This document shows, piece by piece, positions 18,028 to 22,421 of a stretch of DNA of 22,421 nucleotides. A program made the position numbers and the translations under genes. Origin of the DNA: a virus; IMG/VR virus record IMGVR_UViG_3300030098_004712, positions 1 through 22,421 of that record. One strand, written 5' to 3'. The notes beneath the pieces are model-generated. The model searched no databases. It was not told where the DNA came from and saw only the letters and a program-made list of their open reading frames with translations. Numbering within the stretch: position 1 is the stretch's first letter; every line of letters starts with the position of its first letter.

Positions 18028-18636
18028 TTAAAAATTAAAAATTCTGTATTGTCTTAATATTGATTCTGCTCCCTGCGGTATTTTATAAGCTGTTTTTCCA
18101 ACGATAACCTCCTGACGGTTTTCGTATAAATGCCCGATAATTAAATACATTGCATTTAATAATTGTTTTGGAAATCCTGTCGCAGATGTTGAAGCATATC
18201 CTGCAACGAATTTAATTTCAACAGCGTTAGTTCTTTCGTAAGTAGTCGGAAACGTTGAGTTATAAGCTAGAGTAATTCTCGCGGGTTTGCCTTTTAAATC
18301 AGTATCATAATTTGAAGTGTCCCAAGTTTGCAAAGTATTCTGAGAGTCATAATATTTAACATGAGTAACCGCAGAAACTGGATTCGCCAAAAGCTCAATT
18401 GTTACATTACCATAAGGAAACTTGTCTAAATATTGATTATATGTAGCCGAAAGCAATTGATAACCTGTGAAGTTTTCAACGTATTCTCTTGCTGAGCTTA
18501 TAATCGTTCCGATTAACGCGTCATCGTCAGAAGTATCAACTTTTAAAAATAATTTTGCCTCTGATAACGCAATCGGTTCTGAGGTCGCTGCGGTGTGTAA
18601 CACTTTGCTAAATACGCCAACGTTTTTATATTCCAT
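18028..18636 (-). CDS. head-tail connector, gp6-like
   Basis: This 202-residue protein has the gp6-like connector signature: PIALSEAKLFLKVDTSDDD, then LIGTIISSAREYVENFTGYQ, a beta segment with NPVSAVTHVKYYDSQN, and a C-terminal helix with PKQLLNAMYLIIGHLYENR. Its usual length is shorter, about 100 to 200, so this is a full version with the inserted beta region. It sits below the portal as a ring. Starts overlapping the preceding gene by 11 bases. Confidence 0.9.
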   Translation of the reverse strand: MEYKNVGVFSKVLHTAATSEPIALSEAKLFLKVDTSDDDALIGTIISSAREYVENFTGYQLLSATYNQYLDKFPYGNVTIELLANPVSAVTHVKYYDSQNTLQTWDTSNYDTDLKGKPARITLAYNSTFPTTYERTNAVEIKFVAGYASTSATGFPKQLLNAMYLIIGHLYENRQEVIVGKTAYKIPQGAESILRQYRIFNF

Positions 18637-18814
18637 TTGTTATAATTGATTTTTCTTTATTTATAATTTTTTTTTCAATTTTTCTTTTTAATGGTTTCAC
18701 AAAACCTAATTTATAATATTCTATAAATTGAGACGGAGGGAAAGTTAATTCCTGAGTCGGAAAATAAGTGTTTCCCCCTCTCTCAAATTGTTTAATAATT
18801 ACAGATTTAATCAT
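18626..18814 (-). CDS. small protein after capsid gene (62 aa)
   Basis: The 62-residue protein has an N-terminal beta-like part (KSVIIKQFERGGNTYFPTQE, PPSQFIEYYKLGFVKPL) and a Lys-rich tail (KRKIEKKIINKEK). Small genes of this kind between capsid and connector are common and may be head accessory or decoration-like proteins, but I cannot assign it. It begins 15 bases after the capsid stop and is overlapped by the connector gene by 11 bases. Confidence 0.68.
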   Translation of the reverse strand: MIKSVIIKQFERGGNTYFPTQELTFPPSQFIEYYKLGFVKPLKRKIEKKIINKEKSIITNGI

Positions 18815-18829
18815 TAATCTAAATTATTT

Positions 18830-20086
18830 TTAGTCTCTTGTTGCATAAACTAAAGCGTCAGTTGCTGCTGTAACCAATTGACCGTCTAATCTATGGAACA
18901 TAATGAAACCAACGTTTAACTCGTCAGCATATCTCTCATCTAATCTAAGAAGTTGAGGTTGCCCAACCATTCTGATTTTGTATTGAGAAATATCTCCGAA
19001 TACCATTGTTTTGCCTCCAGAAGCACCTGCTGCTGAAAGATTTTCATTCAAATAAACAGGCTTTCCGAAAATAACCCCTGCATTTCCATCCTCGCTAAAT
19101 GATGGTCTAACACCGCTTAAAATGTCAGCATTAGCAATTAAATTGCTGTTAACTGTCATTTGCTTGATATTTTTCCATAAACCGTCTGTCATAAACCAGC
19201 AAGAATTATCTCCTCTATATGCTGAATTAACTGCATGATAAACCTCATTTAACTCTGCTAATGTTGGAGTGTCTGCTCCAAAACCAACACCTGAATCAGT
19301 TGCCGCATTGTTAATACCTGTTGGAGCAGATGAACCTGAACCTCCTGTTAATTGCTCATCAATACCTTTAGCTAATCTTCTTGCAAGAATATCAACTAAC
19401 CAATCATTTACGTTAAAACCCTCATCAGTTAATAACTGCTTAGAAATCTTAACAACTTTTGATGTAAAAGTATAAGCATTTAAAATTGTGTTTCCAAATG
19501 TTATATCAGAAACAGCAACTGCAGAACCTTCTGTCATCATTGCTCCCGTTGTAGTATCTGATGTATTCGGATAATACAATGGAGAACCTGTTGCTGTATT
19601 TATGATTGAGCCATGTTTTGCTCCTGCTGTCATTACAGAAGAAAAACCTCCTTGTAATTTCATATTCAATTCATCAGAAAAAGATTTAGGAACTATATAA
19701 CCTCCTAAAGAATCAGTTGCAGTAGTTTGAGCTGCTGTACCCCTTACTTCAACTAATTTTCTTTCAGCAGCATTTAAACCTGAAAAACCTCTTTTGATGT
19801 ATTTTGAAAATGCAGCACTTCTTGCTTCTTTTTCGTCAACAGATATGTCATCCTTTACAGGAGTTGATTCTGCTGCTAATGACTTATTTAAGTCAGTTTG
19901 CGTTTTTAAAGTTGATGCTGCTTTTCTTAGCTCTGCTTCTTTTTCATACAATCCATCCCATTTAGCTTGCTCATCTTTCGATAAGTTTCTTTCTTCTGTT
20001 TTAGCTGTTTCAAGGATGTTATCCATTTCTTGAACTAAAGCAACTCTCTCTTCTTTAATCGCTTTTAAATTATTTATATTACTCAT
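18830..20086 (-). CDS. major capsid protein, HK97 family
   Basis: The 418-residue protein is an HK97-fold capsid. Residues 1 to about 75 form a Glu/Lys coiled coil, the scaffold-like delta domain that the protease removes; cleavage probably falls near 100 to 117 (KRGFSGLNAA ... VEVRGTAAQ). The core has SLGGYIVPKSFSDELNMKLQ, YYPNTSDTTTGAMMTEGSAV, an ILARRLAKGIDEQLTGGSG E-loop/spine region, and C-terminal VFGDISQYKIRMVGQPQLLR. It follows the protease gene by 21 bases. It is the major capsid protein with high confidence. Confidence 0.96.
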   Translation of the reverse strand: MSNINNLKAIKEERVALVQEMDNILETAKTEERNLSKDEQAKWDGLYEKEAELRKAASTLKTQTDLNKSLAAESTPVKDDISVDEKEARSAAFSKYIKRGFSGLNAAERKLVEVRGTAAQTTATDSLGGYIVPKSFSDELNMKLQGGFSSVMTAGAKHGSIINTATGSPLYYPNTSDTTTGAMMTEGSAVAVSDITFGNTILNAYTFTSKVVKISKQLLTDEGFNVNDWLVDILARRLAKGIDEQLTGGSGSSAPTGINNAATDSGVGFGADTPTLAELNEVYHAVNSAYRGDNSCWFMTDGLWKNIKQMTVNSNLIANADILSGVRPSFSEDGNAGVIFGKPVYLNENLSAAGASGGKTMVFGDISQYKIRMVGQPQLLRLDERYADELNVGFIMFHRLDGQLVTAATDALVYATRD

Positions 20087-20107: not shown

Positions 20108-20710
20108 TTATTTAATCATTTTTAATTTTAACTCTCTTAAATTCCTTTGATAACTATTTGCTTTCTTTTCTTTGTTTTCTGTTTTTTCTTTATTTTCTTT
20201 GTATACTTCATAAGCTCTTACAGCCACTGAAGCTTCTGTATAAGCCGGGTATGTTACTGGTGAAATATCAAATAAAGTATCCACTTGATTTATTGTTCTT
20301 ATAGTTCTGCCCTCTTCATCTTCATTCCATTCATCACCCCCTTCAGCTATTGTAAAACCAAAAGAGCTTTGAGTTATATCTCCTCTTTCCATACTAACTA
20401 CTAAATCTTTTGCGAAATTAGTATCTGGTGTATCTATTTCATATTTTAAACCTCTTTCATCTACTGACAAACTTAAGGTCCCAGCTGTAGTTCTCCCTAA
20501 TACATAATCTGGATTATGATTAAATAAAGCCCTCACATCTTGGTTATTTTCAATTACAGTATCAAAAGCACTTCTTGATATAGTTTCGAAGAAGCCCCCT
20601 AAATTTTCAGATTCAGAATTAAATACTGAAGCATATCCTATAATTTTTTTTGTTTTATTTTTTTTATCATCTACGACTCTAAACTCGTTAGCGAAAATTC
20701 TTCTTTCCAT
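20108..20710 (-). CDS. prohead protease from internal start (200 aa)
   Basis: In the same frame, ATG at 20710 (MERRIFANEF) is preceded by TTTTAAAAATAAAAAT, an A/T-rich leader of the type used by nearly all genes here, and starts exactly at the beginning of the protease domain. Its 200 residues equal the normal length of a free HK97-type protease. An internal start would make both a full-length protein and a free protease from one gene, as with nested scaffold/protease genes in lambda. This is inferred from leader sequence and domain boundary; no experiment supports it. Confidence 0.55.
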   Translation of the reverse strand: MERRIFANEFRVVDDKKNKTKKIIGYASVFNSESENLGGFFETISRSAFDTVIENNQDVRALFNHNPDYVLGRTTAGTLSLSVDERGLKYEIDTPDTNFAKDLVVSMERGDITQSSFGFTIAEGGDEWNEDEEGRTIRTINQVDTLFDISPVTYPAYTEASVAVRAYEVYKENKEKTENKEKKANSYQRNLRELKLKMIK

Positions 20711-21832
20711 ATTTTTATTTTTAAAATTGTTATACTCTTTTTTATTTTCTTTGACTGTTATAATTTCAATATCTTCATCATCATCAAAGCCATCAAATTT
20801 TTCAAAATAATTATTTATATATTCTTTCCATTCTGCAGGTCTTTCATTTTCTGCTGTTTTTAAACACTCTTCTTTATCTCGTTGAATATAAATAACTTTA
20901 GCATCTAACTCTTCAACTAATTTCTTTCTAACTTCTTTTAATGGAGACGAATTTATAATCCATGCTGTTATATTATTATCTCTTTTTATTTTATTAAAAA
21001 TTGTATCTCTAACTTCAAATACATAATCTTTTATAATACTATTATGCTCATGAGTTTTAGAAATACTTAAAGCTTGATGTACTTTATCAAAATCAAATAC
21101 TAAATCTGAAGGGCTTGCATTATTTCTAATATAAGTAGATTTACCTGAACACGAACAACCCATTATTAAATAAATATTTCTTTCTTCTTCTTTTTTTATT
21201 TCTTGTACTTTTCTTTTAGCCCATGCAAAACCTGGGTCACCTCCCCATAAAGCCCATGCTATCCTACCATTACTTGGATAACCTTTTTCGCCTTGTCTAA
21301 AACCTTCAGCTTTTTTATCAACTTCATGTCTACTAAAAAAAGAAAACATTCTTTTAACCGTTTTAAGACTTAAGGATTTTTTATTTTTTATATCTCGGGC
21401 TCTTGCCACACCTACAGCTGTTCCTCCTCTATTAAATTCCTCTCTCCATGCTAATCCTTTTTCAGCTTCTTCTATCATTTCATTAGTTGGTTCTGTATTA
21501 ATATCATCTAAAGCTCTTTCTTGTTCATCATCCATTTTACCTTCTCCTGCTGGATAATAAGCTATCATTTCAATATTTTCATCTTCAAGCCATATTCTAA
21601 CTTTTGCTTCATCTTCATATTTATCTATAGGAAATAATAATTCCATTGGAGCTCTTTTCTCTCCATTATCTACTTCTTTTAACTGGCCTGAAATAACTCT
21701 TATTTCTTCTGGAATAGAAACAAGTCCAGCTTTTGGAAATACATGGTCTCCTCCTTTTATAGTTCTAAAAGAATCTTGCTTGAAATCTTTTGGGTCCCTT
21801 ACCCTTGCTGTATTAAAATTTTTATATGGCAT
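20108..21832 (-). CDS. four-part head protein: N-terminal phage domains, P-loop kinase-like domain, prohead protease
   Basis: A 574-residue fusion. Residues 1 to about 110 include DPKDFKQDSFRTIKGG and an acidic helical region. Residues about 120 to 212 hold GLAWREEFNRGGTAVGVARA, HEVDKKAEGF and GRIAWALWGGDPGFAWAKRK, a domain I recognise from phage head-region proteins but whose role is unknown. Residues about 218 to 345 are a P-loop kinase-like domain: Walker A GCSCSGKS at 225-232, DFDK near 247, AWIINSSP, and a Cys-Arg-Pro helix. Residues 375 to 574 are the HK97 prohead protease: H439 in NHNPD, S490 in SSFGF, and SPVTYPAY. Starts overlap the portal stop. The protease half would process the capsid delta domain. 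Confidence 0.88.
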   Translation of the reverse strand: MPYKNFNTARVRDPKDFKQDSFRTIKGGDHVFPKAGLVSIPEEIRVISGQLKEVDNGEKRAPMELLFPIDKYEDEAKVRIWLEDENIEMIAYYPAGEGKMDDEQERALDDINTEPTNEMIEEAEKGLAWREEFNRGGTAVGVARARDIKNKKSLSLKTVKRMFSFFSRHEVDKKAEGFRQGEKGYPSNGRIAWALWGGDPGFAWAKRKVQEIKKEEERNIYLIMGCSCSGKSTYIRNNASPSDLVFDFDKVHQALSISKTHEHNSIIKDYVFEVRDTIFNKIKRDNNITAWIINSSPLKEVRKKLVEELDAKVIYIQRDKEECLKTAENERPAEWKEYINNYFEKFDGFDDDEDIEIITVKENKKEYNNFKNKNMERRIFANEFRVVDDKKNKTKKIIGYASVFNSESENLGGFFETISRSAFDTVIENNQDVRALFNHNPDYVLGRTTAGTLSLSVDERGLKYEIDTPDTNFAKDLVVSMERGDITQSSFGFTIAEGGDEWNEDEEGRTIRTINQVDTLFDISPVTYPAYTEASVAVRAYEVYKENKEKTENKEKKANSYQRNLRELKLKMIK

Positions 21833-22421
21833 TATTTTTTCTTTTTTCTTTTATTAACTTTTTTTGATTTTTCTTCGTCTACTTTTATAGTTTCTATAGA
21901 CTCAGTCGGTTCTTTTGGGGCATCTGAGGGGGTCATGTTTAAAGGTATATAATATTTATCTCCTCCTTCGATAGCATTAAGATTTTCAAATCTTCTTATT
22001 TCATTTTGTGAAATTACCCCTAAATTCCATAATGTTCTATAAAATTCTGAACGACTTTTTGAATCTCCTCTTAATAATCCATCTACTTTAAATTCACAAT
22101 ACATTCTACTTTTTTCATTTTCTTTAAATAATTTTTTATTTAATTCTTGCTCCCAGTTTCTTAAATAAGGATATAATGTATATTTTACAAACTCCAAAGA
22201 CTGCTGTTCTATATTTGAATACGTCGCAGCATCTAATGACATTACTAAGTGGGGTTGAACTCTAAAAATTCTACAAATTTCTATTACACTAAATTTTCTG
22301 GTTTCTATAAACTGAGCATCATTTGGGGGAATAGATATATTTTTAAAAGTCATCCCTTCTTCTAAAATTGCTGTTTTATGTGCATTACTACCTCCGTTGT
22401 TTGCATATTTTTGGTTCCATG
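21832..22421 (-). CDS. portal protein, C-terminal part (cut by window edge)
   Basis: The frame is open from 21832 to the edge at 22421, so the N-terminus is missing. Visible are about 196 residues. They include the family end-region: KTAILEEGMTFKNISIPPND, AQFIETRKFSVIEICRIFRV, QPHLVMSLDAATYSNIEQQS, and the FVKYTLYPYLRNWEQELNKK helix. An internal Met at 22353 should not be taken as the start, since the LEEGM context continues upstream. The end carries a Lys-rich tail. Terminase is expected upstream outside the window. Confidence 0.93.
   Translation of the reverse strand, partial: WNQKYANNGGSNAHKTAILEEGMTFKNISIPPNDAQFIETRKFSVIEICRIFRVQPHLVMSLDAATYSNIEQQSLEFVKYTLYPYLRNWEQELNKKLFKENEKSRMYCEFKVDGLLRGDSKSRSEFYRTLWNLGVISQNEIRRFENLNAIEGGDKYYIPLNMTPSDAPKEPTESIETIKVDEEKSKKVNKRKKKK

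Follow-up and report, generated by a model that had tools for sequence, protein, structure and literature searches.

Several known phage proteins share parts of the gene described here, in which two domains (D1 and D2) and a P-loop kinase precede a prohead protease. The 'prohead serine protease' of Staphylococcus phage vB_SauS_308 (Peeveelvirus; UKM35917.1) likewise joins an N-terminal P-loop kinase to an S78 protease at the portal-capsid position (E 2.5e-49). However, this protein has 339 aa without D1 or D2, a perfect internal Shine-Dalgarno (SD) sequence lies ahead of its protease, and its annotation mentions the protease only. The protease-capsid proteins of Roseobacter CRP-811 and Synechococcus S-CBS3 display D2 (in S-CBS3 also D1) N-terminal to an S78-like protease in the same gene position, but they lack the kinase and their protease runs on into the capsid protein. 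The prohead protease of the archaeal virus Halovirus HGTV-1 (889 aa, L010:1606-4272) draws on the same repertoire as the arrays (TUDOR, DUF3721-like, D2), although its protease is N-terminal, the accessory domains come after it and the kinase is missing. The same kinase domain is found in the packaging region in PHROG 4581 ('terminase small subunit') and in the mycobacteriophage 'polynucleotide kinase', but there it is free-standing or joined to HNH, with no protease.

A further parallel is offered by polyvalent proteins. According to Iyer et al. (2017; PMC5512222) these are multidomain and shuffled, are linked to head proteins (portal, MuF) and are proposed to be ejected with the DNA. The arrays share with them the trait of several shuffled domains per polypeptide linked to head genes. 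A word search of that paper returned no prohead protease-kinase arrays of this kind. In a word search covering part of the literature, neither a prohead protease-kinase fusion nor DUF5824 or DUF2945 in phages was found described; likewise, a partial literature search found no description of a shuffling array, turnover of the kinase cassette or nested starts. Both enzymes are of known kinds, and PHROG 9644 already groups the two as an unnamed pair.

The window, the whole stretch of 22,421 nucleotides that was analyzed (IMG/VR record IMGVR_UViG_3300030098_004712, positions 1 to 22,421), carries the fusion gene flanked by a portal gene and an HK97-type capsid gene. The single frame of 574 residues at 20108-21832 that the preliminary description had reported is real and lies on the minus strand; the plus strand across the same interval contains many stops. 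Its motifs were found where they had been placed (SFRT at residue 21, GLAWREEF at 126, WALWGGDPG at 193, GCSCSGKS at 225, DFDK at 247 and ENERP at 328). The features are as follows.

20108..21832, minus strand: 574-aa fused gene, D1-D2-kinase-S78 prohead protease (open frame and homologues L002-L004)
21518..21832, minus strand: D1, residues 1-105, tentative member of a domain type (RPYPNEHAAR...EAxxWL) located ahead of proteases in other phages
21182..21490, minus strand: D2, residues 115-217 (GLAWREEF...WGGDPG), five-helix domain (phrog_2859, E 1e-31)
20795..21178, minus strand: kinase domain, residues 219-346 (fold matches; PHROG 4581, E 5e-32)
21137..21160, minus strand: Walker A GCSCSGKS, residues 225-232, with G225, G230 and K231 invariant in 24 fusions
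20754..20756, minus strand: approximate point (residue ~360) of the extra ~80 residues in L002-L004, from alignment
20708..20710, minus strand: M375, in-frame ATG starting the protease part, candidate internal start, aligned with the starts of free-standing proteases
20204..20668, minus strand: Peptidase_S78 prohead protease core, residues 389-543, with H439 and S490 (Pfam, TIGR01543, Foldseek)
21832..22419, minus strand: portal protein, C-terminal part, upstream neighbour; the gene continues beyond the window
18830..20086, minus strand: HK97-type major capsid protein, downstream neighbour, 95.9% identical in L003
27..383, minus strand: HNH endonuclease gene at the contig end, at the position found before the terminase genes in relatives

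An HNH gene occupies the equivalent end position in the relative G001. A run of ten Ns at about 22422-22431 of contig G000, in the portal gene just beyond the window, breaks the portal frame.

A frameshift or assembly error joining two genes, which the preliminary description had named as a result that would overturn it, has a practically negligible probability. An N run nearby in the same contig would favor such an error, but it affects the portal gene only and the fusion gene is free of it. A search for the four-part order identified three further IMG/VR contigs (L002-L004) with the same D1-D2-kinase-protease order in one intact frame at about 75% identity, each with one extra domain, and the kinase-protease pair is also fused in sequenced isolates. 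For practical purposes the homologues refute an artefact, and it was rejected. The extra domain of L002-L004 consists of about 80 residues between kinase and protease that the window lacks; Pfam DUF3721 matches the homologous stretches in relatives, weakly. From the sequences, this DUF3721-like piece would have been either lost precisely in frame in the window or gained in L002-L004.

By profile, catalytic residues and portal-capsid position, the C-terminal part is assigned as an HK97-type S78 prohead protease. Pfam Peptidase_S78 matched residues 389-543 (E 2.4e-50, 171 bits against a cut-off of 21) and TIGR01543 of NCBIfam also matched (E 2e-31, 109 bits against 59). In an alignment of 24 fusions H439 was present in 24/24 rows and S490 in all 23 rows having a residue there. 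The earlier claim of an HK97 protease with these two residues is supported. T4 prohead protease gp21 (5jbl, E 2.9e-4) was among the PDB Foldseek matches of the protease part, and a comparison of the window protein with PDB sequences gave nothing beyond a chance match. PHROG 9644, 'head maturation protease', spans residues 220-557 and thus comprises kinase and protease together.

In an AlphaFold model of residues 215-574, built from the 24 fusions (mean pLDDT 84), residues 219-346 adopt a gluconate-kinase/polynucleotide-kinase-like P-loop fold. The kinase-protease part and D2 were modelled apart because a 111-row fragment alignment misplaced the D1 and kinase pieces in the full-length model. 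Foldseek against the PDB placed gluconate kinase 1ko4 (E 2e-5, probability 1.00) and polynucleotide kinase 4gp6 (E 2.4e-5) first, so that the kinase-like fold anticipated from the sequence was recovered. Pfam AAA_33 gave no match for the window, and relatives scored 13-22 bits against a gathering threshold of 27. Seven residues of the kinase (G225, G230, K231, T233, D247, R275 and R331) were invariant across the 24 fusions; the Walker A, acidic motif and lid arginine roles of K231, D247, R275 and R331 were assigned by analogy. The predicted fold and these four invariant residues argue for the kinase being an active enzyme, and since the catalytic residues are conserved across the 24 fusions, kinase and protease both look active. 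A stretch between the two domains appears disordered in the model (pLDDT about 40). This low-confidence linker is compatible with a polyprotein that may be cut later, as the preliminary description had also proposed.

The kinase-protease pair recurs widely, so the four-part protein is less singular than first thought: fusions were detected in Staphylococcus phages, in Corynebacterium, Mobiluncus, Dermabacteraceae and Actinomyces genomes and in many metagenomic phages, and the pair already lies inside PHROG 9644. The actinobacterial fusions are prophages. Wherever the flanks were covered, the gene order was portal, fusion, capsid. Six accessory domain types were found ahead of the protease: D1, D2, DUF5824, DUF3721, TUDOR and the kinase. 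Scans with D2, D1 and DUF5824 each gave at least 80 loci. HMMs built here and applied to 4241 frames of all loci, some of them cut by contig ends, revealed 30 different accessory-domain orders ahead of S78, plus portal-array fusions. The kinase lies before D2 in L145-L164 and after D2 in the window, and DUF5824 lies before the kinase in L100-L105. As a separate observation, some portals (L020, L032, L046, L054, L059, L089 and others) carry D2, DUF5824 and DUF3721-like domains at their C-terminus; in other phages these same domains sit ahead of the protease, one gene further on.

Close relatives differ by whole cassettes. L146 and L255 are 94% identical, with L255 precisely lacking the kinase; L157 and L279 are 96% identical, and L102 and L274 are 94 and 84% identical, apart from in-frame absence of the kinase. 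The difference between L157 and L148 is a D2-DUF3721-DUF5824 block. Elsewhere in the loci of these kinase-presence/absence pairs, no kinase was detected beyond one chance-level piece. Such exact in-frame presence or absence between proteins that are 94-96% identical elsewhere marks the kinase as a dispensable cassette. On the protease tree the kinase label changed at least four times, two being the least number forced by strongly supported branches, and shuffled labels never gave so low a count; protease domains at near-zero distance occurred both with and without the kinase. The window and L003 show a similar pattern locally: the array gene is 69-79% identical, the portal is 93% identical over its C-terminal 173 residues and the capsid 95.9%. 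Thus, the array gene, having diverged from L003 amid flanks of 93-100% identity, is a site of exchange or of fast change. Five further genes, downstream of the capsid gene, have 100% protein identity to L003 (stretches compared, 18028-20086 and 21832-22353). The fusion represents a single configuration of a domain array that is shuffled, each cassette having been gained and lost repeatedly.

Internal starts ahead of the protease were found in several lineages that use SD sequences. The Staphylococcus fusions contain AGGAGGTGAGGAAAATG in frame directly ahead of the protease, with an SD pairing of -16.3 kcal/mol; among 965 internal start codons from these loci that served as controls, 0.2% reach this value. 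An internal SD and start at the same place in L122, Corynebacterium (L123) and Actinomyces (L124) ranked at 0.6-1.7% of controls; those of other fusions ranked at 5% of controls or weaker, with L125, L169 and L170 being weak. Ahead of its scaffold part, the kinase-scaffold fusion L131 likewise contains an internal AGGAGG together with an ATG, CAGGAGGAAACGATG. In L141-L144, L146 and L163 no start codon was present close to the protease. In the window, alignment placed the starts of the free-standing proteases of SfV and Klebsiella phage 1 three to four residues from M375. The window's own genes lack SD sequences, and synonymous conservation around M375 was not above that of the rest of the gene. 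Internal initiation at M375 is possible.

The gene encodes an HK97-type prohead protease with an N-terminal array of exchangeable cassettes, one of them a small, catalytically conserved P-loop kinase. The reading that we favor, at about even odds (probability roughly 0.5), is that the kinase is a passenger which enters the prohead on a partner protein located inside it, usually the protease and once a scaffold. The C-terminal protease domain would bring its passengers inside the prohead, and there the protease may cut the flexible linkers. The kinase might either act on packaged DNA or nucleotides or be retained and ejected with the DNA. The protease would also be made alone from an internal start in Gram-positive-type relatives, possibly from M375 in the window, so maturation need not depend on the passenger. 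Loading into the prohead is suggested by the two kinase partners, protease and scaffold, both being prohead-internal. In HK97-type phages, however, the protease and its fragments usually exit the head, and the passenger could thus be lost with them. In SPN3US the prohead protease cuts N-terminal propeptides, and propeptides generally exit the head (PMC10052503). A precedent for delivered multidomain head proteins is given by the polyvalent proteins of Iyer et al. (2017; PMC5512222).

In the chief alternative, the kinase would belong to the packaging machine and phosphorylate DNA ends or nucleotides; carried on the protease to the place where the DNA enters, it would heal 5' ends at or near cos. 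We regard this as doubtful, although several results fit it. Outside fusions, the nearest relatives are free kinases that adjoin an HNH nuclease gene where a cos-type genome ends, ahead of the terminase genes; their annotations read 'terminase small subunit' or 'polynucleotide kinase', and examples come from Lactobacillus A2 (L012) and mycobacteriophage Tortellini (L014). This agrees with the preliminary description, which placed similar P-loop proteins as separate genes near terminase or portal; a position near terminase holds for Lactobacillus A2, mycobacteriophages and Butyrivibrio Bo-Finn. Others form fusions with an HNH endonuclease, and both orders occur (L165:1495-2169; L013:3722-4417 from Bo-Finn; L129:3210-4007; also L172). 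HNH was found in 12/20 kinase-protease records against 3/20 array records without kinase (Fisher p 0.008; p 0.016 with long records and Staphylococcus collapsed), which suggests a link with DNA ends or packaging, but the lineages are non-independent, contig ends differ and the association may reflect lineage. The window itself has an HNH gene at its end, and polynucleotide kinases are among the fold matches; gluconate kinase, however, fits the fold equally well, and near-identical relatives manage without the kinase. The sole kinase-scaffold fusion seen lies at L131:3995-4924, where the kinase's partner matches the head scaffolding family phrog_233 (E 6.5e-16).

The fusion might also be neutral, arising from overlapping genes through a lost stop, with the protease made mainly from an internal start and the fused product an unimportant by-product. 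The strong internal SDs and starts at the protease boundary in several lineages would agree with this, as would M375 lying three to four residues from the natural start of free-standing proteases. We think it unlikely, since dozens of phages with differing domain orders keep the frame open across long arrays, several members have no start near the protease and the catalytic residues of the kinase are invariant. Far less probable still is a functional coupling in which the maturation protease is controlled or powered by the NTP-binding domain, corresponding to the first of the two alternatives in the preliminary description. Physical fusion in several lineages would speak for it, but the linker is flexible, near-zero-distance protease domains occur with and without kinase, the kinase is absent from relatives 94-96% identical, and it is joined elsewhere to a scaffold protein or an HNH nuclease. 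Taken together, the presence and absence of the cassette, the changes on the tree and the local divergence make it improbable that the kinase takes part in the protease reaction itself. Direct regulation was rejected as a likely explanation on the absence of the cassette in near-identical relatives. Of the earlier interpretation, the real fusion, the kinase-like fold and the separate P-loop genes stand, whereas functional coupling is disfavored.

The passenger reading could be extended to the arrays at large. Tentatively, and as a possibility at most, the portal-protease junction may be a general loading bay in HK97-type tailed viruses of bacteria and archaea, where rapidly shuffled cassettes of all six types would be addressed to the prohead interior by a prohead-internal partner. 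The protease would then release them, and they would reach the host along with the DNA and act as effectors early in infection. To our knowledge, D2, DUF5824, DUF3721 and TUDOR are not enzymes; the array would therefore also be explained if these domains bound DNA or served a structural purpose during head assembly. The purpose of the domains that are swapped ahead of many prohead proteases is a general and testable question. If passengers are loaded and delivered, the prohead protease gene would act as a natural address tag on phage effectors, and engineered laboratory phages could readily exploit it to deliver proteins. For annotation, some caution is needed, as 'prohead protease' entries may hide a conserved kinase and their starts may be nested.

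With regard to the accessory domains themselves, D1 may be akin to a widespread phage domain that precedes proteases. An HMM built without the window matched the window at E 5.5e-4, exceeding 200/200 shuffles, in a short match only. Neither D1 nor the DUF3721-like domain, each used as the sole query, matched anything in the phage collection. A small N-terminal domain (FIERCMSDE...RLAVCYAQ) lies ahead of the DUF5824-like part in L102 (from 3143 on) and L274 (from 670 on). The D2 model (residues 108-222) consists of five helices with a pLDDT of 97; it matched no fold in a search of solved structures in the PDB and no Pfam family, and its fold matches among predicted viral proteins were named portal, prohead protease, XkdF, ParB and TUDOR. 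D2 is very common in phages, with at least 600 stretches in the scan (L017-L096), and it is found on its own in Pseudomonas phage PaBG (L008:2965-3297) and Synechococcus S-CBS4.
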